Source: a virus. Taken from it: a DNA stretch of 34,377 nucleotides. The number at the start of each line of letters is the position of its first letter. The first letter of the stretch is position 1. The notes beneath the pieces were generated by a model, which saw only the letters and a list, made by a program, of their open reading frames with translations, was not told where the DNA came from and made no database searches. Of the stretch, positions 1,752 through 34,377 are shown one piece after another. The position numbers and the translations under genes were made by a program. Where the stretch lies: IMG/VR virus record IMGVR_UViG_3300007345_000017, positions 1-34,377 of that record. The stretch is one strand, 5' to 3'.

Positions 1752-2942
1752 ATGACAGTAGCAGCAATCGGCTCGCTTGCGTCTTCGCAAACGGGTTTTG
1801 TGCTACCACAGGCCAGTAGTGACTTATCTACTGATATGACTCATGCGAATGAGATTCTGGTAGCAATGAAAAACGAGGGTATTGTCAATATAGAGCGCAA
1901 ACTGGAAACAGTTTCTGGCGCTGGTGTTGAAGTCAATATCCGTAATCTTTATCGTCCGGGCGGCTTGCCTAATCTAGGTGATGGCGACCCTTATGAAAAC
2001 GCTGACGTTCCTAAATACGGGAACCGCTCGCTGAATATCAATAAGTTCTGGAAAAGCTTTGAGTTTGACCGTCCTACTTCATTCAGCCAGCAAATGACCA
2101 GCATTGACCTGCAAAAGTTCCACCCAGAAAACTACAAGAACTACTTCGCTGACTTGTTCTTGAAGGGATTGATGACTCAGGGCGGTTCGGCAACGAACTT
2201 GAGCTTAAGCTCTCCTGACCTTGACCTTTCTGGTATCACGGGAACTGACCGCACTAAATTGACAATGGGTAATGCAGCCATCGCGCCATCTGGTGAATAT
2301 CATCAGGTTGCCGGTGAGCTTGTGGCATCAAAAACGCCACAGACATTGACATCATCTGACACTTTGACGGTTGGCATGTTGATGAAAGCTGCCACAGAAA
2401 TTGGCAAGACTCGCGCTAATCTGACGCGCTGGAACATTAAGAGTGTTAACGAGCTAGGTTGTGTGTTTATTGCACAGTCTGATTTGTTCAACCTGATGAA
2501 CCAAAGCGTGTCTATCGGCAACAACTATGTGTTTGGTGATGTGTACCAACGCCAGATTCAGGCAAAAGATGCCAAAGAGATTGGCGGTATCATCCACTCA
2601 TTCACCATGCCGGGCATTCCGTTCAAGTTCTGGGTTCTGCCGGATAGCTACTTTGAGGCCGCAGTTTCTACTGCTGATTCCTCTTCTGTTGCTAATACGC
2701 GCCGCTTGTTCATCCTTGGCCGTAACGCGCTTGATGTTGCCTTCGGACGCATCAACGCGGGTAAAGATGTATCCTCTCCGTTTGTTGTTAAAGTTGACAA
2801 CAACTGGAAGCCTCTGGGCGTTAAATCGTTCGGTCTGGCGCAGGGTGCTTTTGGTGGCAAGAAAGCGCAAATTCCAAACAAGTCAACGGGTACTGCCACT
2901 GATTGGGCAACCTACACCATTGACGTACACACAGGAGCATAA
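1752..2942 (+). CDS. Major capsid (coat) protein
   Basis: The protein has 396 residues, slightly shorter than the 430-residue P22 coat, and directly follows portal and scaffold genes. The sequence has the look of HK97-fold coats: an N-terminal helix with ANEILVAMKNEGIVNIERKL, a long central segment with many aromatic and Gly turns (YRPGGLPNLGDGDPYENADV), and a C-terminal beta-rich part with GRNALDVAFGR. It resembles phage capsid proteins of the P22/N4-gp56/DUF4043 type, but I cannot choose between these groups by eye. A promoter candidate and a hairpin at the ribosome-binding site precede it, which fits high expression. The next gene starts 4 bases after the stop. Confidence 0.8.
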   Translation: MTVAAIGSLASSQTGFVLPQASSDLSTDMTHANEILVAMKNEGIVNIERKLETVSGAGVEVNIRNLYRPGGLPNLGDGDPYENADVPKYGNRSLNINKFWKSFEFDRPTSFSQQMTSIDLQKFHPENYKNYFADLFLKGLMTQGGSATNLSLSSPDLDLSGITGTDRTKLTMGNAAIAPSGEYHQVAGELVASKTPQTLTSSDTLTVGMLMKAATEIGKTRANLTRWNIKSVNELGCVFIAQSDLFNLMNQSVSIGNNYVFGDVYQRQIQAKDAKEIGGIIHSFTMPGIPFKFWVLPDSYFEAAVSTADSSSVANTRRLFILGRNALDVAFGRINAGKDVSSPFVVKVDNNWKPLGVKSFGLAQGAFGGKKAQIPNKSTGTATDWATYTIDVHTGA

Positions 2943-2945
2943 GAG

Positions 2946-3404
2946 ATGACTGATTTTACTGGTACTCTTGTAGTAGAGCCGCGCATTGGTGACCTTGACA
3001 AGGTCTGCCATACAAAGGTTCTATTCACACTAACCGAAGCATTAGCGACAACTAATAGCTATACCTTCACTCCTTTTATTGATGGCTATTATTCCGTTGT
3101 AGAAGATGTGCAGCTATATGGTGTTAACGCTGATACTAATGCAACCCCAACCGGCACGTACACGCTTGGCACGACAGATGATAAGGACGGGCTTTTGACT
3201 ACTAAAGCCATGTCCGTAGCACTGCAGAACAGCCTTGCGTCTCAAGTGAATTATTTTGGTGATGGCGACCTGATTAAAAACCAGACCGTTATTACAGGTG
3301 ACACGCTTGAGCTTGATGTAACTGCCAATCCTGCCACTGGCGCAACCGCTGGTGACATTTGGATTGACCTTTACTTCCGCTTGGTTTCCAAGAATTACTC
3401 GTAA
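2946..3404 (+). CDS. Coat-associated structural protein, possible head decoration
   Basis: The protein has 152 residues, is mostly beta-prone with many Thr/Gly/Asp turns, and has no signal peptide or membrane segment. It lies immediately behind the coat gene (stop at 2942, start at 2946), where decoration or capsid-stabilising proteins are often encoded. No family is recognised. The start is supported by close spacing and AGGAGCATAAGAG upstream. A minor tail or head-completion role is the alternative. Confidence 0.6.
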   Translation: MTDFTGTLVVEPRIGDLDKVCHTKVLFTLTEALATTNSYTFTPFIDGYYSVVEDVQLYGVNADTNATPTGTYTLGTTDDKDGLLTTKAMSVALQNSLASQVNYFGDGDLIKNQTVITGDTLELDVTANPATGATAGDIWIDLYFRLVSKNYS

Positions 3405-3414
3405 AGGGTAATTC

Positions 3415-4011
3415 ATGACAACCCTGCTGGATGTTCGTAATGCGGTTAAACGTAAGCTGGTTCTAAACGACACAGTTTATGACACTGATATTGACGATTG
3501 CATTCGGCAAGTTCTCCGCTCTCGAAATCAGGATAAGCTCTGGTTTCTTGAGCGCGTAGGGACGCTGACGTTGGAGCTGGATTCCTCTAGCGTCAGCTTT
3601 CCTGCATCTTATGGAGACATTGAGCGAATTGACCTAATCCGCTCCGGCCAGCGTTCTGAGCTTGCCAATATCCCTTATAAAAAATTAGAAGCGCGGTATT
3701 ACTTGGAAGACCCGATTACGTCTGGTGTTCCGGAGGCTTATTCTAAAGTCAATCGCACACTGTATTTTTCACACACGGCAGACCAAGTTTACACGCTGCC
3801 AACCACTTATTACATTCGCGACGAAACCCTGCCGACACTTGATACGGATACAAGCGTATGGTTTGGCGATGACGGGTTTGACCTTGTGCGCGCACAAGCA
3901 ACCTACTTCATGCGCGTTGGCCCAATGGAGCAGGAGAGCGCAAGCCTGAATGAAGTAACCATTGCGACACAAATATTAAACGAAAAGCACCGACAATTTA
4001 GGACGTATTAA
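3415..4011 (+). CDS. Head-tail adaptor protein (DUF6682-like)
   Basis: The protein has 198 residues. The N-terminus (LLDVRNAVKRKLVL, then DTDIDDCIRQVLR) and the middle (SFPASYGDIERIDLI, followed by a GVPEAYSKVN segment and YYIRDETLPTL) follow the pattern of adaptor proteins that dock under the portal of podoviruses (P22 gp4 / T7 gp11 role). They form a ring that closes the portal after packaging and connects it to the tail. Its position after coat and before the tail genes agrees. The family name is inferred from pattern, so exact placement is moderate. Confidence 0.65.
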   Translation: MTTLLDVRNAVKRKLVLNDTVYDTDIDDCIRQVLRSRNQDKLWFLERVGTLTLELDSSSVSFPASYGDIERIDLIRSGQRSELANIPYKKLEARYYLEDPITSGVPEAYSKVNRTLYFSHTADQVYTLPTTYYIRDETLPTLDTDTSVWFGDDGFDLVRAQATYFMRVGPMEQESASLNEVTIATQILNEKHRQFRTY

Positions 4012-15107: not shown

Positions 15108-15449
15108 ATGAAAGACTATTTTGAGAAATTCTCCCAGATGGACTACCTGACATGGTTTAGTGTCATGTTTGTGGCCTTGTCTGCTACCATCGTTAGGCTT
15201 CTGATTGAGGCCCAAGCGCTGACAGTTAGAGGGTTTATAATTAGCTCTATCATGGCTGCATTTCTTGCGTATATCACTGCGCTTTACTGCATGGAAATTG
15301 AAATGAGCGCAAAGATGATGGGTGTTACTGTTGGTTTAGTGACTTATCAGGCCGTGAATATTTTAACTGGCCTTGGAAAACTGGGAGCGGCCTTTGCCAA
15401 AGACCCAATTGCTTTAGCTGAAAAAATCCGTAATATATTTAAGAAGTGA
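15108..15449 (+). CDS. Holin-like protein with three membrane segments
   Basis: The protein has 113 residues with hydrophobic segments at about 13-34, 42-63 and 70-95, and a basic C-terminus (EKIRNIFKK). It is the first gene after the structural block and lies two genes upstream of the M15 endolysin, the usual holin position. Its size and topology agree with class I holins and its pattern resembles phage holins of the Lysis protein S/LydA sort. Holins form the timed inner-membrane lesion that releases endolysin. Confidence 0.65.
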   Translation: MKDYFEKFSQMDYLTWFSVMFVALSATIVRLLIEAQALTVRGFIISSIMAAFLAYITALYCMEIEMSAKMMGVTVGLVTYQAVNILTGLGKLGAAFAKDPIALAEKIRNIFKK

Positions 15450-15450
15450 T

Positions 15451-15612
15451 ATGATGTTACAGGCACTCATACGCAATCTAATCGGCACAACCATAATGGT
15501 TGCCCTGTCGCTTTTTCTCTTTTCGCAAGCCAGAAGCGCTGTAATTTATCACGGCGGAAAGAGCTATTTCAATTATCCTATCTATGTATTAGCGCAAGTG
15601 AGCGTGTCATGA
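15451..15612 (+). CDS. 53-residue exported or membrane peptide in the lysis cassette
   Basis: The frame ATGATG...TCATGA encodes 53 residues. Residues 5-30 (ALIRNLIGTTIMVALSLFLF, then SQARSA) look like a signal peptide or membrane anchor with an Ala-X-Ala-like SARSA region. The rest is short and aromatic. Its stop overlaps the endolysin start as ATGA and it begins 1 base after the holin-like gene, so it is translationally linked to both. A role in regulating lysis is possible. No family is recognised. Confidence 0.55.
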   Translation: MMLQALIRNLIGTTIMVALSLFLFSQARSAVIYHGGKSYFNYPIYVLAQVSVS

Positions 15613-16037
15613 AGCATGTATTCAGCAATCACAGCATCCAGCAGCTTCACACGCTGCACCCTGACCTGCAAAAAATCTGTCGATTTGTCTTGCCGCACCA
15701 TGATTTCAAGATTCAGCAAGGATACCGTGACAAAGAGGCGCAGAATTTAGCTGTGGCCAAAGGCTATAGCAAGGTGAGATTCCCCAACAGTAAGCACAAC
15801 ACCAGCCCAAGCATGGCAATGGATTTGCTGCCATTCGTAAATGGCAAATTCATTGGCTGGGATAACTGGGCACAATGGCGCTTCTTTGGTGGTATAGTCA
15901 TGGGATATGCCGCAGCCCTGCATGACGCGGGGGAGATAAGCCATCGCTTGCGCTGGGGGCATGATTTTAACATGAATAACGACTTGAAAGATGGTAAGTT
16001 TATAGATGCGCCACATTTTGAGTTAGTGGAGCTGTAA
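15609..16037 (+). CDS. Endolysin, M15-type peptidase
   Basis: The protein has 142 residues. The zinc-site signature of M15 L-Ala-D-Glu/D-Ala-D-Ala peptidases is visible: SKHNTSPSMAMD gives His63 and Asp72, and WGHDF (116-120) and APHFEL (134-139) give the catalytic region and the third ligand His136. QGYRDKEAQN near residue 37 is also typical. The enzyme cuts the peptide part of peptidoglycan at lysis. There is no signal peptide, so it depends on a holin. Its start overlaps the stop of the 53-residue ORF. Confidence 0.85.
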   Translation: MKHVFSNHSIQQLHTLHPDLQKICRFVLPHHDFKIQQGYRDKEAQNLAVAKGYSKVRFPNSKHNTSPSMAMDLLPFVNGKFIGWDNWAQWRFFGGIVMGYAAALHDAGEISHRLRWGHDFNMNNDLKDGKFIDAPHFELVEL

Positions 16038-16044
16038 AATGGAA

Positions 16045-16058
16045 GAAAAGCTATGAAA
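16045..16058 (+). repeat. 14-base direct repeat at the Tad2-like gene start (copy 1)
   Basis: GAAAAGCTATGAAA is identical to bases 16538-16551. It covers the ATG of the Tad2-like gene; the second copy covers the ATG of the next gene. The distance is 493 bases, one gene. Confidence 0.9.
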
Positions 16059-16535
16059 CAATTTTATGGAACGAAGAAGCTGAACGCTAAACCCATGACG
16101 CGGGGAGAGTATAACGAGTTTCGCGGATGGGGCTTACCATCTGATGAGAGCGGTGACGATGAGGGGTATCTTGTCGAATATCTGGATGGTGGTAAAGGAA
16201 ATCACCCAGATTTTGAGGGTTATATCTCATGGTCACCTGCTGATGTGTTTGAGAAAGCATATCAGCCGATTAATGCTCTAAACTTTGGTCACGCCATTGT
16301 AGCGCTTAAAGAGGGAAAAAAGGTCGCCCGCGCAGGATGGAATGGAGTTAACCAGTATGTTTACTATGTGCCAGCGAACAGTTACCCAGCACAAACAGAT
16401 GCTGCGAAATCTGAATTTGGTGATAGCGTACCTTACCGCGCTTACTTTGCTCTGAGAACCGCGCAGAATGATGTGGCAACTTGGGTTCCATCAATATCAG
16501 ATGCACTGGCTGACGATTGGCAAATTGTAGAATAG
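16053..16535 (+). CDS. Tad2-like (DUF2829) protein, probable anti-defence protein
   Basis: The protein has 160 residues. Residues 75-160 match the DUF2829/Tad2 pattern: LNFGHAIVALKEGKKVARAG, WNG, YVYYVPANSYP, then PYRAYFALRTA and a closing WVPSISDALADDWQIVE. Residues 1-72 form a separate conserved N-terminal module (KPMTRGEYNEFRGWGLP, GYLVEY, YISWSP-DVFEKAY) often fused to it in phages. Studied Tad2 proteins bind the cyclic nucleotide-type signal of Thoeris immunity and so block it. Whether this one binds the same ligand is inference. The gene sits between endolysin and spanin genes and is bracketed by a 14-base direct repeat that contains its start and the next start, so it looks like an inserted accessory gene. 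Confidence 0.8.
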   Translation: MKQFYGTKKLNAKPMTRGEYNEFRGWGLPSDESGDDEGYLVEYLDGGKGNHPDFEGYISWSPADVFEKAYQPINALNFGHAIVALKEGKKVARAGWNGVNQYVYYVPANSYPAQTDAAKSEFGDSVPYRAYFALRTAQNDVATWVPSISDALADDWQIVE

Positions 16536-16537
16536 GA

Positions 16538-16551
16538 GAAAAGCTATGAAA
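16538..16551 (+). repeat. 14-base direct repeat at the next gene start (copy 2)
   Basis: This is the second exact copy of GAAAAGCTATGAAA. It contains the ATG (16546) of the 58-residue holin-like gene. Recombination between the copies would delete exactly the Tad2-like gene and leave the downstream start in place. Confidence 0.9.
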
Positions 16552-16722
16552 ATTCTAAACTGGGCATTAGCCCGCCTGAAAGAGAAATCAACTTGGGCGG
16601 CTATCTTTACGCTTGCAGCCACGGCTTTGGGCGTGACGCTGGAACCTGCTTTGAAGGAGGCCATTATTACGGCTGGCATGGCAGTATCAAGCGCCGTTCT
16701 TATTGGCATTAGTGAAAAATAA
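16546..16722 (+). CDS. Small two-segment membrane protein, holin or antiholin type
   Basis: The protein has 58 residues. After a short amphipathic start (NWALARLKEKSTW) there are two hydrophobic segments, at about 17-31 and 39-55, joined by an acidic turn (LEPALKE). The pattern, with a LARLKEKSTW-like start, resembles short phage holins. It has AGGAG 7 bases before the ATG and its stop overlaps the i-spanin start (TAATG). With another holin-like protein at 15108, one may be the pore-former and the other an antiholin or pinholin-like protein. Confidence 0.65.
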   Translation: MKILNWALARLKEKSTWAAIFTLAATALGVTLEPALKEAIITAGMAVSSAVLIGISEK

Positions 16723-16910
16723 TGTGGCTGGCAATTACATGGGCCGCCGTGTTGTTAGGCTTTGCAGGTGCCTTGATATGGGCATTCCGGCAGGGCAAGC
16801 AACACGGCATAGCTCAGGAAGCGAATGAGACTTATGAAGCTGAAAACAATGCTCGTGCTTATAAGCGCCGTATTTCTAAGCGGTTGCAGCAAATGCGAGA
16901 TAAGCGGTAA
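16722..16910 (+). CDS. i-spanin (Rz-like)
   Basis: The protein has 62 residues: an N-terminal membrane anchor (about 2-23, LAITWAAVLLGFAGALIWAF) followed by a charged helical periplasmic part (QEANETYEAENNARAYKRRI). It overlaps the stop of the previous gene, and a lipoprotein gene begins inside it in another frame, the Rz/Rz1 arrangement. It is shorter than lambda Rz (153 residues). With the o-spanin it would span the periplasm and fuse the membranes in the last step of lysis. Confidence 0.65.
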   Translation: MWLAITWAAVLLGFAGALIWAFRQGKQHGIAQEANETYEAENNARAYKRRISKRLQQMRDKR

Positions 16911-17022
16911 CTTCTGCGACCTTTACGAGCCGACTGGCGTAATGGAAAACGGATTGCCAAATATTAATGACGCGGTTTATGAGTGTATGTGTTTGGGCAG
17001 TGATGCGGATTGGTGTGATTAG
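16825..17022 (+). CDS. o-spanin-like lipoprotein (Rz1-like), overlapping the i-spanin gene
   Basis: The protein has 65 residues and starts in the +1 frame inside the i-spanin gene, preceded by AGGA at 5 bases; ATGs at 16834 and 16849 are alternatives. The signal sequence MLVLISAVFLSGC ends in the lipobox LSGC, with Cys21 as the likely lipidated residue. The mature part (about 45 residues) is Cys-rich, with Cys at positions near 21, 24, 31, 54, 56 and 64, and is not Pro-rich as in lambda Rz1. The ending NDAVYE...DADWC matches small lipoproteins of this kind in other phages. It extends 112 bases past the i-spanin stop. Confidence 0.7.
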   Translation: MRLMKLKTMLVLISAVFLSGCSKCEISGNFCDLYEPTGVMENGLPNINDAVYECMCLGSDADWCD

Positions 17023-18559: not shown

Positions 18560-18729
18560 TTTCTCGCTGCCTCTCCATTTTCGTACATTGCCTTAATTAT
18601 ATCCATTGCATCATCTTCATCATATGCCCAGACCGTAACTTCTTGCATTTCGCCAGCATACATAGCCCGCACAGCATAAGCGTGCATCGGTTCTGTTTCT
18701 GCCGCAGGGTGTAGTAATATTTCAGCCAT
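18556..18729 (-). CDS. 57-residue early protein
   Basis: The frame from ATG 18729 encodes 57 residues with a strand-rich start (AVRAMYAGEMQEVTVWAYDE) and acidic helix (DEDDAMDIIKAMYENGEAAR). Its start overlaps the end of the upstream gene by 8 bases and its stop overlaps the next start (ATGA). Small, acidic and of unknown function. Confidence 0.5.
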   Translation of the reverse strand: MAEILLHPAAETEPMHAYAVRAMYAGEMQEVTVWAYDEDDAMDIIKAMYENGEAARK

Positions 18730-24038: not shown

Positions 24039-24449
24039 CTACATAGGCGGTTCATCATTGGTTTCTGCCTGATAATTTTCTGGCAAAAACCGCTTAACTT
24101 CAGTATAATCAGGGTTATTTTTCTGCTTAACCACCTCAATAGTCAAAACACGGCCTTTCAGTGGCGCGCTGCTACTCACGGCGCTGCCTGTCGCATCGGC
24201 AATGCGCTTGATGCGCTGACGAGCAATGTTAGCAGTCATTTCGTTTGGGTGCGTAGTCAAAAACCACACCTTTCCCTTCTGCCCTTTATTGATACCTTCA
24301 ACGGCCTCAAACTCTGCGACAACGCCGAGCTGCTTACCCTCTTTTGCATAAGGCTCTTCGCTAACAATCATGGCCTTATAGGTGCCAATCGGCAAGCCGA
24401 CTTTATCTAATTGAATGTCATCGGTTGTTTCAAATCCATACATGCTCAT
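24039..24449 (-). CDS. DUF669-like single-strand DNA-binding protein
   Basis: The protein has 136 residues. The pattern GLPIGTYKAMIVSEE, then a GQKGKVWFLTTHPNE strand region, a helix ANIARQRIKRIADATG, and an acidic tail ending EPPM fits the DUF669 phage family, which has been proposed as ssDNA-binding proteins and regularly lies next to Sak4-type annealing proteins. The start overlaps the Sak4 stop (ATGA). The acidic C-terminus is like that of SSBs, which use it to recruit partners. Confidence 0.7.
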   Translation of the reverse strand: MSMYGFETTDDIQLDKVGLPIGTYKAMIVSEEPYAKEGKQLGVVAEFEAVEGINKGQKGKVWFLTTHPNEMTANIARQRIKRIADATGSAVSSSAPLKGRVLTIEVVKQKNNPDYTEVKRFLPENYQAETNDEPPM

Positions 24450-25186
24450 TTTGTAATCTCCTCTTTAAGCTTGTTATAATCTAGTGGCAGTTCTTTTGGT
24501 AGTTTCATGCGGCCACCTCCGACAAAAGAAACATCATCCCCAGCCAGCAATACACGCTGCGGCTGGCTGATGGTTTTCCCCTTATCAGCAACATGAAACT
24601 TAAATGCGGCAAATAAAATAAGGTCTGCCCATTCATTTGTTTTTGCGCCCAGCCATTTAGAAAGCTTTAGCTGATGGCGCGAATAAGGTTCTTGATTAGG
24701 CAGGTCGATTGTCTTTACCTCGCTATGTGCAATAACAATGGCCGGAATACCTTTCTTTTCATAAATAGCATCAAGCCAGCCGATTACCTTGGCCGCCATT
24801 TCTGATGCCTCCATAACCCCTTTGTAATAGGCAAAAGCTGTGACATTAGGGTCAACGATTGATTTGGCGTTATGCTCCTTAATAAGCTTTTTTTGCGCCA
24901 ATGTTTCCAGCCAGTCCAGCGAGTCAATCGCAATGCGTCCAGCCGTAAAATCATCGTTTTCATAAATATGGCGAAGCCATCCAATAACTTCATCATAGCT
25001 GTTTAGCTTCGGAGTTGAGCGCACTTTATTGCCCAGATAGTCAAGGCCACCTTCGATATTGATAAAGAATACATCATGAATTTGTGCGCAAAAGGTTGTT
25101 TTACCAATTTTAGGCTCAGCATATATCGCCATTTTCGCAGGCATTTCTTTTGATTGCCCTGCCTTGGTTTCTACAAAGTCCATCAT
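24446..25186 (-). CDS. Sak4-like RecA-fold ATPase (AAA_24), single-strand annealing
   Basis: The protein has 246 residues. Walker A AEPKIGKTT (23-31) and Walker B RIAIDSLD (84-91) are present, followed by IVIAHSEVKT and the C-terminal segment SKWLGAKTNEWADLILFA. This is the pattern of phage AAA_24/Sak4 proteins, which anneal single strands and pair with an SSB-like protein encoded nearby, as here. Start ATG 25186 (or 25183) lies in a 14-base repeat shared with the upstream gene start. Confidence 0.8.
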   Translation of the reverse strand: MMDFVETKAGQSKEMPAKMAIYAEPKIGKTTFCAQIHDVFFINIEGGLDYLGNKVRSTPKLNSYDEVIGWLRHIYENDDFTAGRIAIDSLDWLETLAQKKLIKEHNAKSIVDPNVTAFAYYKGVMEASEMAAKVIGWLDAIYEKKGIPAIVIAHSEVKTIDLPNQEPYSRHQLKLSKWLGAKTNEWADLILFAAFKFHVADKGKTISQPQRVLLAGDDVSFVGGGRMKLPKELPLDYNKLKEEITK

Positions 25187-25192
25187 ATTACC
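25179..25192. repeat. 14-base direct repeat at the Sak4 gene start (copy 1)
   Basis: TCCATCATATTACC on the + strand reads GGTAATATGATGGA on the coding strand. It includes the stop of the 59-residue ORF and the start of the Sak4-like gene. The identical sequence is at 25355-25368. Confidence 0.9.
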
Positions 25193-25362
25193 TCTCTTAA
25201 ATATTTTGCTATTTCTTCAAACGCACTCATTCTGGTATATAGCGATTTACTAACTTCATCCATTTTTTCATAGTGCCACTCGCCATCTATATAGTATTTA
25301 TCAATTATCATGCGAAGCCTGTCAGCTTCGCAATTTAAGTAACGCATAATTAATTCCATCAT
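25183..25362 (-). CDS. 59-residue unknown protein flanked by direct repeats
   Basis: The frame from ATG 25362 encodes 59 residues, helical with a mixed charge pattern (LNCEADRLRMIIDKYYIDGE, KSLYTRMSAFEEIAKYLREV). The start overlaps the stop of the Gp157-like gene (ATGA) and its stop overlaps the Sak4 start. A 14-base repeat brackets it exactly, so it looks like an inserted gene. An 8-bp stem hairpin lies near its 5' end (25311-25332). Function unknown. Confidence 0.55.
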   Translation of the reverse strand: MMELIMRYLNCEADRLRMIIDKYYIDGEWHYEKMDEVSKSLYTRMSAFEEIAKYLREVI

Positions 25363-25368
25363 ATTACC
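25355..25368. repeat. 14-base direct repeat at the 59-residue ORF start (copy 2)
   Basis: This is the second copy of the junction repeat. It contains the stop of the Gp157-like gene and the start of the 59-residue ORF. The two copies are 176 bases apart. Confidence 0.9.
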
Positions 25369-25727
25369 TTCTCACCTTTCACTTGTAAGTTATAACGTTT
25401 CTCCACCCCGTACCAGTTAGCCTGTGGACGCGCTGCTTTAATTAGCTGCTTATTGGCCTCTTTTTTGATGCGGATATATTCATCAGGCAGCGCATCAATA
25501 TCTGGCACAATAACCGCCTCGCTTACACGCAGCGAGAAATGCTCAGAATCCACAACGCCGTTGCCTAGCATATAATCCTTGGCGGCTTGTTCTAGTTCTT
25601 CTAATTCAAATTTGATTTTATCGGCTTCAGATTTTGCTTTTTCAGCAATCTTTTTTGCTTCATTATAAGCCGCCTGTTTGGAGATTAATTGCTCCCAAAT
25701 AAGCTGTTCTTCTTTGTCGTTAGTCAT
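25359..25727 (-). CDS. Gp157-like phage protein
   Basis: The protein has 122 residues. An N-terminal coiled coil (KKIAEKAKSEADKIKFELEE) leads to a beta part (SEHFSLRVSEAVIVPDI) with DALPDEYIRIKKEANKQLIK, the pattern of the Siphovirus Gp157 family. In streptococcal phages, Gp157 was linked to phage resistance; elsewhere it accompanies recombination genes. It is the first gene of the leftward replication/recombination operon. Confidence in the family is moderate. Confidence 0.6.
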   Translation of the reverse strand: MTNDKEEQLIWEQLISKQAAYNEAKKIAEKAKSEADKIKFELEELEQAAKDYMLGNGVVDSEHFSLRVSEAVIVPDIDALPDEYIRIKKEANKQLIKAARPQANWYGVEKRYNLQVKGEKVI

Positions 25728-32773: not shown

Positions 32774-34377
32774 TTTCTGATGATGAGATTTTAGATAAAT
32801 TCAACCGGCGTATGACCGACTACTTTTCCACGACTGTCGCGCAGCGCCAAGAATCGCAGATAATGTACCAGATTAGGGATGGCCATGTCGTCACCCCTCC
32901 ACGCTCGCCTTATGATAGAGGGCAGCGGATGGCTATTGAGGATGATGCAGAGAATTATCGGGTGCCTGTGGTTATCAACCGTGTGGCGCGATACCTTGAC
33001 GCGATTGTGGGTAATGCCATTCAACATGGTAAGATTGTGGAAATGCTAGCCAATGACCTTGAGTTTGACTCGCAGATAGACATTGGCAACGATATTAAGG
33101 ATTATGTGGAATTTGAGGGTGGATATGAATTTAGCCGCCCTGTGGCGTTTCTGGACTCCCTAACTCGTGGCTTTGGCGCTGTGGTTACGCAGCTTGATAC
33201 GACGGTGGCCGGGATGCCTGCCGGAAAGCCATCAATTGAGCGCAAGTTCTTTGCGGCCTATGACACTGCCCCGCGTGCAAATGACATCAACGCCCATGCC
33301 TCGTGGTGTTCTTACGCTGACCCGGTTGCGCTGGAGGATTTAGATAGTTACCTGCGATTGCGCGGTATCGACCCTGAGAAACTGAACGGCGGTGGCGATT
33401 CGTTCATGTGGAATTATCTGGAATACTGCAATCCAGAGAATGAGGGTTTGCTGGAGTTTGCCCATAAATATTACTGGCATGACCATAAGAAAGTTTATGA
33501 CGTAGTAAACCCGTATATGGGGCGGGCGCAGCAAATTCAGGAAGCCGCACAAAATGACGAAGGTGTGTACGCGCTACTTGAGAAAATGAGTGACGCTCTG
33601 GGTGTGCAGATACAATCAAGTCTATGGACATTGGATAAAGATGGCCTTCAGGAGGTTGATTACTTCATTGAGAATATACGCGAGCGCACTGGAATGAATA
33701 TCCAGAAGCTTGAGCGCTCTGAACGTGAGACTAAATTCTACCAACAAGCAGAAATCATCCGGGGCACTGTAGTTAAAAAGGCACCGTCATTCTGCCAGAA
33801 AGGGCACGCGCTTTCATTTATTGCTGGCTTCTATGACGAAACTTTGGGTTATCACTACGGCTTAATGCGTAGCGCTGCACAGGCGCAAATAATGCAGGAT
33901 GAGGCTATGACAGCCTTCCACAATTACGCAATGCGCGCAGAAGTGGGTGGCACGGTTGCGGTAGCTGGCGGCGGAGATGGTATAGAGCAATTAGTTGACC
34001 AGTTGCGTCGTAAGCGTAGCGTTGTTTCTGCGCCGGAAAATGGCTCTGTGAACTCCATTGGCTTACCAGACACCACGCAGGCATTTGTTTCTCTGATTGC
34101 TGAGTATAAAGAGGCCATCCCGACATTGTTAGGCGTGCCGCCTGAAATTCTAGCCACACTATCTACAAAAGATACTGGCGAGGGTTTAGTACGTGCGATG
34201 GTTGAGCGGATGAATGTTGCACTGCTTTACGTGATGAACAGCAGCAACAGCCAGTTACGCCAGCAGGCTTATATCTCGTTAGACCTTGCTCGTAAAATGG
34301 TTGACACGGGCGATACAAGGCTAATCCGCGCCATCACCCCGCACCATTCAGAGGAAGACTATATCAAGTTCACGAAA
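32770..34377 (+). CDS. Portal protein, N-terminal part (continues at base 1)
   Basis: The frame opens at ATG 32770, overlapping the terminase stop, and is still open at the end of the window. It encodes residues 1-495 up to base 34254 and continues in frame at base 1. Features of P22-type portals are visible: an N-terminal helix, YRVPVVINRVARYLDAIVGN, a long domain with IQKLERSERETKFYQQAEI, and a region with GVPPEILATLSTKDTGEGL. The total is about 699 residues. The portal forms the 12-fold vertex ring through which DNA enters and leaves. Confidence 0.85.
   Translation, partial: MISDDEILDKFNRRMTDYFSTTVAQRQESQIMYQIRDGHVVTPPRSPYDRGQRMAIEDDAENYRVPVVINRVARYLDAIVGNAIQHGKIVEMLANDLEFDSQIDIGNDIKDYVEFEGGYEFSRPVAFLDSLTRGFGAVVTQLDTTVAGMPAGKPSIERKFFAAYDTAPRANDINAHASWCSYADPVALEDLDSYLRLRGIDPEKLNGGGDSFMWNYLEYCNPENEGLLEFAHKYYWHDHKKVYDVVNPYMGRAQQIQEAAQNDEGVYALLEKMSDALGVQIQSSLWTLDKDGLQEVDYFIENIRERTGMNIQKLERSERETKFYQQAEIIRGTVVKKAPSFCQKGHALSFIAGFYDETLGYHYGLMRSAAQAQIMQDEAMTAFHNYAMRAEVGGTVAVAGGGDGIEQLVDQLRRKRSVVSAPENGSVNSIGLPDTTQAFVSLIAEYKEAIPTLLGVPPEILATLSTKDTGEGLVRAMVERMNVALLYVMNSSNSQLRQQAYISLDLARKMVDTGDTRLIRAITPHHSEEDYIKFTK
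34255..34377. repeat. Terminal direct repeat, right copy (circular overlap)
   Basis: This is an exact second copy of bases 1-123. It lies inside the portal gene, whose frame (codon boundary at 34255) matches the frame of the gene fragment that starts at base 1. It supports a circularly permuted genome, as expected for headful-packaging P22-like phages. Confidence 0.95.

Follow-up and report, generated by a model that had tools for sequence, protein, structure and literature searches.

The window, that is, the whole stretch of viral DNA analyzed here (IMG/VR record IMGVR_UViG_3300007345_000017, 34,377 nt), carried identical 123-bp ends (bases 1 to 123 and 34255 to 34377), so that it probably represents one complete genome unit (34,254 bp). 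Its gene content included head, ejection/lysozyme, helicase, primase, Sak4, and terminase genes. The close relatives in IMG/VR were all 99.95 to 100% identical to the window; one such contig, L001, stopped at position 18593, and 3300006916_000295 should stop nearby (approximately 18573 to 18593, by contig-range arithmetic). The features considered below are as follows.

15108-15449, plus strand: probable holin, LydA/PHROG 785 type (PHROG 785, 2.3e-7; PF16083, 1.1e-4, under its cut-off)
15451-15612, plus strand: 53-aa ORF, unassigned
15609-16037, plus strand: endolysin (PHROG 465, 1.2e-31)
16044-16058, plus strand: repeat copy 1, AGAAAAGCTATGAAA (Tad2-like gene start)
16053-16535, plus strand: Tad2-like gene, 160 aa (PF11195, 4.9e-24; PHROG 872, 6.2e-64)
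16053-16268, plus strand: N-terminal module of the Tad2-like protein, residues 1-72, fused elsewhere to several other domains
16272-16532, plus strand: Tad2 ligand-binding domain, ModTad2 type, residues 74-160 (PDB 9eib, 4.8e-33)
16537-16551, plus strand: repeat copy 2, AGAAAAGCTATGAAA (58-aa gene start)
16546-16722, plus strand: 58-aa ORF, unassigned, with homologues in other phages that adjoin other genes
16722-16910, plus strand: Rz-like inner-membrane spanin candidate (PHROG 1026, 1.5e-4; PHROG 312, 4.4e-4)
16825-17022, plus strand: nested ORF in the Rz1 position, an outer spanin by position only (weak PHROG 1119 match)
25179-25193, minus strand: second start repeat, AGGTAATATGATGGA (start of Sak4-like gene, 24446-25186)
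25355-25369, minus strand: second start repeat, AGGTAATATGATGGA (start of 59-aa gene, 25183-25362)

The genes in the lysis neighborhood were ordered holin-like (15108), 53-aa ORF, endolysin (15609), Tad2-like gene (16053), 58-aa ORF (16546), and spanin candidates (16722 and 16825). The original prediction had described an endolysin-to-holin order; in the window, the Tad2-like gene is followed by the 58-aa ORF, and it is upstream of the endolysin that the likely holin is encoded. The Tad2-like gene would be read together with the late lysis genes.

Family, fold, and predicted ligand of the Tad2-like protein

The phage gene at 16053-16535 probably encodes a protein that mops up a bacterial alarm molecule. 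Its assignment to the Tad2 family, proposed originally, was borne out by profile, sequence, and predicted fold. The PF11195 match covered residues 77-159 with 85.1 bits against a curated cut-off of 25, the PHROG 872 (DUF2829/Tad2) match extended over the full length, and the family motifs GWNG and W.PS.SD.LA.DW were present in the alignment. The AlphaFold2 model had a pLDDT of 90.5, and in a fold search its top 24 PDB matches were all Tad2 chains, the best being 9eib, ModTad2 with hisADPR (E value of 8.6e-11; TM score of 0.86 by target length). Neither the Tad2-like protein nor the proteins carrying the N-terminal module were matched in PADLOC or NCBIfam.

The closest protein in both sequence and fold was ModTad2, the anti-Thoeris 2 protein of a Myroides odoratus prophage (PDB 9eib and 8v3e), which was matched among PDB sequences at 4.8e-33, compared to 2.7e-13 for SPO1 Tad2. 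The ungapped alignment held 52 identical residues out of 87 (60%, an identity insufficient to fix the ligand). In comparison to ModTad2, the window protein, with predicted ligand and activity, has an additional N-terminal module of approximately 72 to 73 residues. SPO1 Tad2, HgmTad2/AcrIIA7, and SptTad2 share the Pfam domain and the fold at weaker similarity (2.7e-13 to 2.3e-9), and gcADPR, cADPR, or cyclic dinucleotides are bound in their solved complexes. Annotations of Tad2 relatives include the anti-CRISPR name AcrIIA7. Both domains of the window protein are found in PHROG 872, a two-domain DUF2829/Tad2 family from many phages listed in PHROGs as function unknown; the window copy differs from it by its location between the endolysin and the 58-aa gene and by the start repeat.

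MoTad2 blocks type II Thoeris via binding of His-ADPR, and SPO1 Tad2 binds gcADPR (PMC13299392); His-ADPR is the signal of type II Thoeris (PMC12948488). The proposal that the protein is a sponge for a Thoeris signal therefore stood as regards the Tad2 family, but not as regards cyclic-ADPR isomers as its ligand, since the nearest solved protein carries His-ADPR. The ligand of the Tad2-like protein is likely His-ADPR, and type II Thoeris is the expected target. The gene product would thus act as a two-domain immune-signal sponge, in which the C-terminal ModTad2-type domain most likely binds histidine-ADP-ribose, and sequestration of this signal would keep the host effector from activation. We regard action on a target outside Thoeris, such as CBASS cyclic dinucleotides or a CRISPR component, as rather unlikely. 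Tad2 homologues do bind cyclic dinucleotides via an insertion between strands 2 and 5 (PMC12043709), and one family member was deposited as AcrIIA7; however, the alignment to ModTad2 is free of gaps over its entire length, and the domain is about as long as that of ModTad2 (87 aligned residues, compared to 101 to 104 in the SptTad2 and HgmTad2/AcrIIA7 chains).

The N-terminal module and its fusion partners

Residues 1-72 had no match in Pfam, NCBIfam, or PDB sequences, and no PDB fold resembled the module. It was strongly conserved, with 14 invariant columns across 21 rows. Among 79 additional IMG/VR loci (designated by L numbers, and chosen as the best module matches), the module was followed by a Tad2 domain in 74. 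Fusions to other domains were also found. The module was joined to Tad1, the other Thoeris sponge fold, in L373, L384, and L391 (match at 3001-3591 or 2554-3144), where the Pfam hairpin domain scored 1e-5, just under its cut-off, and the Tad1 part of L373 matched PDB Tad1 at 6.8e-17. It was joined to Gp49_66 in L065 and L349, in the reverse order (Gp49_66, then module) in Rhizobium phage L315, and to crAss001_48 in L307, L371, and L398.

In Pectobacterium phage phiA41, the module preceded an RyR domain (3.2e-7), and in phage Possum the same slot held the module alone. This slot of the two related Pectobacterium phages is flanked by DNA primase and Sak4/recombinase (L395, 1198-1746, module with RyR; L396, 1198-1413, solitary module). 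RyR-type proteins of phages either break down or sequester ADPR signals, and a sponge-type RyR homologue, which may or may not be the phiA41 protein, comes from a Pectobacterium phage (PMC13232231). The fusions to Tad2, Tad1, and RyR mean that one module accompanies at least three types of anti-Thoeris domain, and phages would thus attach the N-terminal module of the window protein to other anti-defense domains, too. Aeromonas and Vibrio phages carried the module on its own as well. An Acb2-like identity considered for the tail of the Vibrio 1.185 protein (L310) was rejected, as the searches gave no support.

In L157, L160, L162, and L309, the Tad2-like gene was preceded, immediately or nearly so, by small genes, of which those in L157 and L309 were annotated Gp49_66. 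Together with the fusions in L065, L315, and L349, the latter two genes suggest Gp49_66 as a further anti-defense candidate. Recurrence on Tad2, Tad1, and RyR proteins would make the module a search tag for new anti-defense proteins.

The repeated gene start and gene gain beside the lysis genes

The 14-mer GAAAAGCTATGAAA, reported originally at 16045-16058 and 16538-16551, was confirmed at both positions with zero mismatches and had no further exact copy in the window. The exact repeat is one base longer than first noted (15 bp), and 17 of 18 bases agree between the copies when flanking bases, read from the sequence, are included. Much as had been described, each copy takes in the ATG and codon 2 (AAA) of its gene (start at 16053 or 16546), together with the spacer that follows the ribosome-binding site. 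The 15-mer can be read as a translation start common to two neighboring genes, made up of the last part of the ribosome-binding region, the ATG, and a Lys codon. The 58-aa gene has a distant homologue in L006, behind a different upstream gene, and at the start of this homologue CTATGAAA was present (8 of the 15 repeat bases), so the downstream copy looks to be the older of the two.

Three exact direct repeats of at least 15 bp were seen in the genome unit, compared to 0.37 expected in simulated sequence. About two exact 14-bp repeats are expected by chance per genome of this size, which makes the plain 14-mer count weak evidence, and register and adjacency were therefore tested instead. An in-register match of at least 13 bases was found in 2 of 1,485 gene-start pairs, both of 15 bases and both adjacent; the third-best pair had 12 bases in common. 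The column-shuffle null gave approximately 1e-5 per pair for at least 14 bases, and 15 bases were never reached in 3,000 shuffles. The second of these pairs, the exact 15-bp repeat AGGTAATATGATGGA, brackets in register the 59-aa gene on the minus strand, which has a low G+C content (0.33) and lies between a 122-aa gene and the Sak4-like gene. Its occurrence in the same genome indicates that the bracketing, though real, is not tied to the Tad2-like gene. When 101 distinct genes that have the N-terminal domain were compared, a similar start bracket was found in one, that of the window phage (15 bases; runner-up, 8). The start repeat is not due to chance, yet it is not special to the Tad2-like gene.

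The generality of alike starts was analyzed in 150 nonredundant viral loci (1.74 Mb; 2,880 called genes) by comparing same-strand adjacent with nonadjacent pairs within each locus. Matches of at least 8 bases occurred in 49 of 1,925 adjacent and 266 of 21,234 nonadjacent pairs (Fisher P = 2e-5), those of at least 10 bases in 13 and 41 pairs, respectively (P = 4e-4), and those of at least 14 bases in 3 and 3 pairs, respectively (P = 0.009); both window pairs are absent from these counts because the simple gene caller chose other starts. Sharing of start sequences was thus 2 to 11 times commoner between neighboring than between distant phage genes, and local start likeness is a mild general feature of these phages, of which the window holds two extreme cases. 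In a separate count over 106 loci, five adjacent in-register repeats of at least 14 bases were found, two of them from the window. Near position 4001 of L041, L042, and L045, an GGAGATCCAYACCCATG-like start of the Tad2-like gene recurs, mismatched, before the next gene, which is another mild case of alike neighboring starts.

Alike starts could arise by local copying, by joining at short homologies, or by selection on translation that both genes share. The last of these, a recombination-free account in which one efficient late translation signal and Met-Lys beginnings are selected, deserves serious weight, but we do not consider it probable. Six of the 15 repeat bases are the ATG and a common Lys codon, purine-rich spacers recur in the window genome, and adjacent phage gene starts are alike more often than distant ones, all of which agrees with selection; moreover, a start-associated 13-mer with a proposed translation role is present at many genes of cluster K mycobacteriophages (PMC3203893). 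Selection should, however, make many starts alike, whereas the third-best pair dropped to 12 bases and both 15-base pairs were adjacent, and nonfunctional spacer bases are identical as well. The cluster K sequences resemble the window repeat in being short repeats at gene starts; they differ in that the 13-bp consensus lies upstream of many starts and the window has one pair, spanning the ATG and codon 2. A consensus of the cluster K type (GGGATAGGAGCCC) was not found at many window gene starts, which carry no such common sequence.

The original prediction had taken the repeat for a joint at which a one-gene cassette is inserted or removed, bringing or leaving the start codon. The exact 15-bp direct repeat around a single gene and the second bracket in the same genome fit such a joint. 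To look for relatives lacking the gene, IMG/VR was searched with four baits (endolysin, 58-aa protein, 701-aa ejection/lysozyme protein, and terminase) and GenBank phages with two of these (terminase and 701-aa protein); none was found, and only near-identical contigs or very distant phages were returned. A search of genome contigs yielded two matches, both distant.

Gain and loss were visible in P22-like loci, gathered with the terminase of phage Kapi1 as bait, where the two-domain gene stood directly after Rz1 in 6 of 79 loci with identical terminase. The junction was clean in the empty relatives L243, L177, L214, and L201 and read GAGCCAGT(T)CATTACAAAGCC. In the filled allele, CATCACAAA preceded the ATG by approximately 68 bp and CATTACAAA stood a short distance past the stop codon, which places the breakpoints approximately 68 bp upstream of the ATG and 7 to 10 bp past the stop, at a short imperfect CATYACAAA repeat. 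These direct repeats flank the related gene and one copy is kept in the empty alleles, again in agreement with a cassette. The related gene thus comes and goes beside the lysis cassette at a short imperfect repeat and not at the start codon. The start-codon repeat as the breakpoint was not supported: these junctions lie elsewhere, no empty relative was found among related contigs that were all near-identical, and the 100 other N-domain genes lack a bracket. We regard the start-codon joint as improbable. That the repeat is pure coincidence among the possible repeats of a 34-kb sequence would accord with the expected number of 14-bp repeats, but it is extremely improbable given the in-register position at adjacent starts, twice, and the shuffles, none of which reached 15 bases.

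We consider the 15-mer most likely a scar of local copying or joining at a gene start and not a working recombination site; it may have been left by the arrival of the Tad2-like gene in front of the 58-aa gene. In T4-type phages, repeated expression signals at gene borders form mobile regulatory cassettes that aid shuffling and carry promoter stem-loops. Such stem-loops were not seen in the window.

The lysis cassette had further been proposed as a docking place for the gene. Gain and loss after Rz1 in P22-like phages agree with this, but the lysis region is not the sole site, since several are used. The module-bearing gene was within the lysis region in P22-like phages, Y3, 41E34.2, AP1, and JELG-KS1, whereas CSP3, phiAH14a, Skulduggery, 1.185, and phiA41 had it in a head, terminase, or replication region.

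Replacement of the binding core in relatives

The Tad2 binding core appears to have been exchanged within the gene in two phage groups, both relatives of the Tad2-like gene and distinct from the window phage, with approximately 90 to 100% identity over module and flanks against 13 to 60% in the core. The DNA of the P22-like alleles L171 and L176 was approximately 87 to 100% identical from 240 bp upstream through gene nucleotide 240, compared to 13 to 60% over most of the next 250 nucleotides, the core. Phage Louie shared the same N-terminal DNA (95 to 100%) and had a third core, and its last 100 nucleotides were 98 to 100% identical to L171. Across the three alleles, N-domain DNA was 98 to 100% identical and cores were 13 to 60% identical. 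In the IMG/VR loci L320 to L340, pairs such as L323/L335 and L326/L333 were mostly 80 to 100% identical on the flanking sides and 37 to 63% in the core. At least three types of core were present, including a ModTad2-like one. Since the cores diverged at synonymous as well as other sites, recombinational replacement accounts for them and gradual divergence does not.

The core was below 65% identity in 40 of 85 pairs with N-domain DNA of at least 88%, and no pair combined a core of at least 88% with an N-domain below 80%; these counts are biased, as loci were picked by N-domain similarity, and pairs with L065 in them are fusion differences (Gp49_66 insertion at the core position) and not Tad2 core swaps. 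The replaced stretch covers the region with the ligand-binding loops and the insertion of Tad2 named in PMC12043709. In the wider family, diversity would arise mainly via replacement of the ligand-binding core, for which the N-terminal module, 3' end, and flanks would supply the homology. Polymorphic toxin systems (PMC3482391) are alike in having a constant front and recombined C-terminal parts; in the phage sponge, the binding core is replaced and the far 3' end is constant. A limited literature search returned no paper on core swapping or on the recurrent module.

The explanation as a whole, a two-domain signal sponge with the repeat as the scar of a local event and family diversity via core replacement, is favored with moderate confidence. 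We propose more tentatively that phages use a dedicated N-terminal module on unrelated signal binders (Tad2, Tad1, RyR-type, and perhaps Gp49_66 and crAss001_48) and exchange the core to match the signal of a new host. If true, the Gp49_66 and crAss001_48 domains would be further anti-defense domains. The window gene is one more Tad2 relative, and the pattern around it could matter more; that the module recurs, and that the core following it is exchanged, is a more interesting result than the repeat. A core swap in a near-identical gene would explain how phages track changing host signals, and core-swapped alleles provide ready-made pairs for tests of ligand specificity. N-terminal DNA and flanks were alike and Tad2 cores different among L171, L176, and L312 and among L320 to L340.
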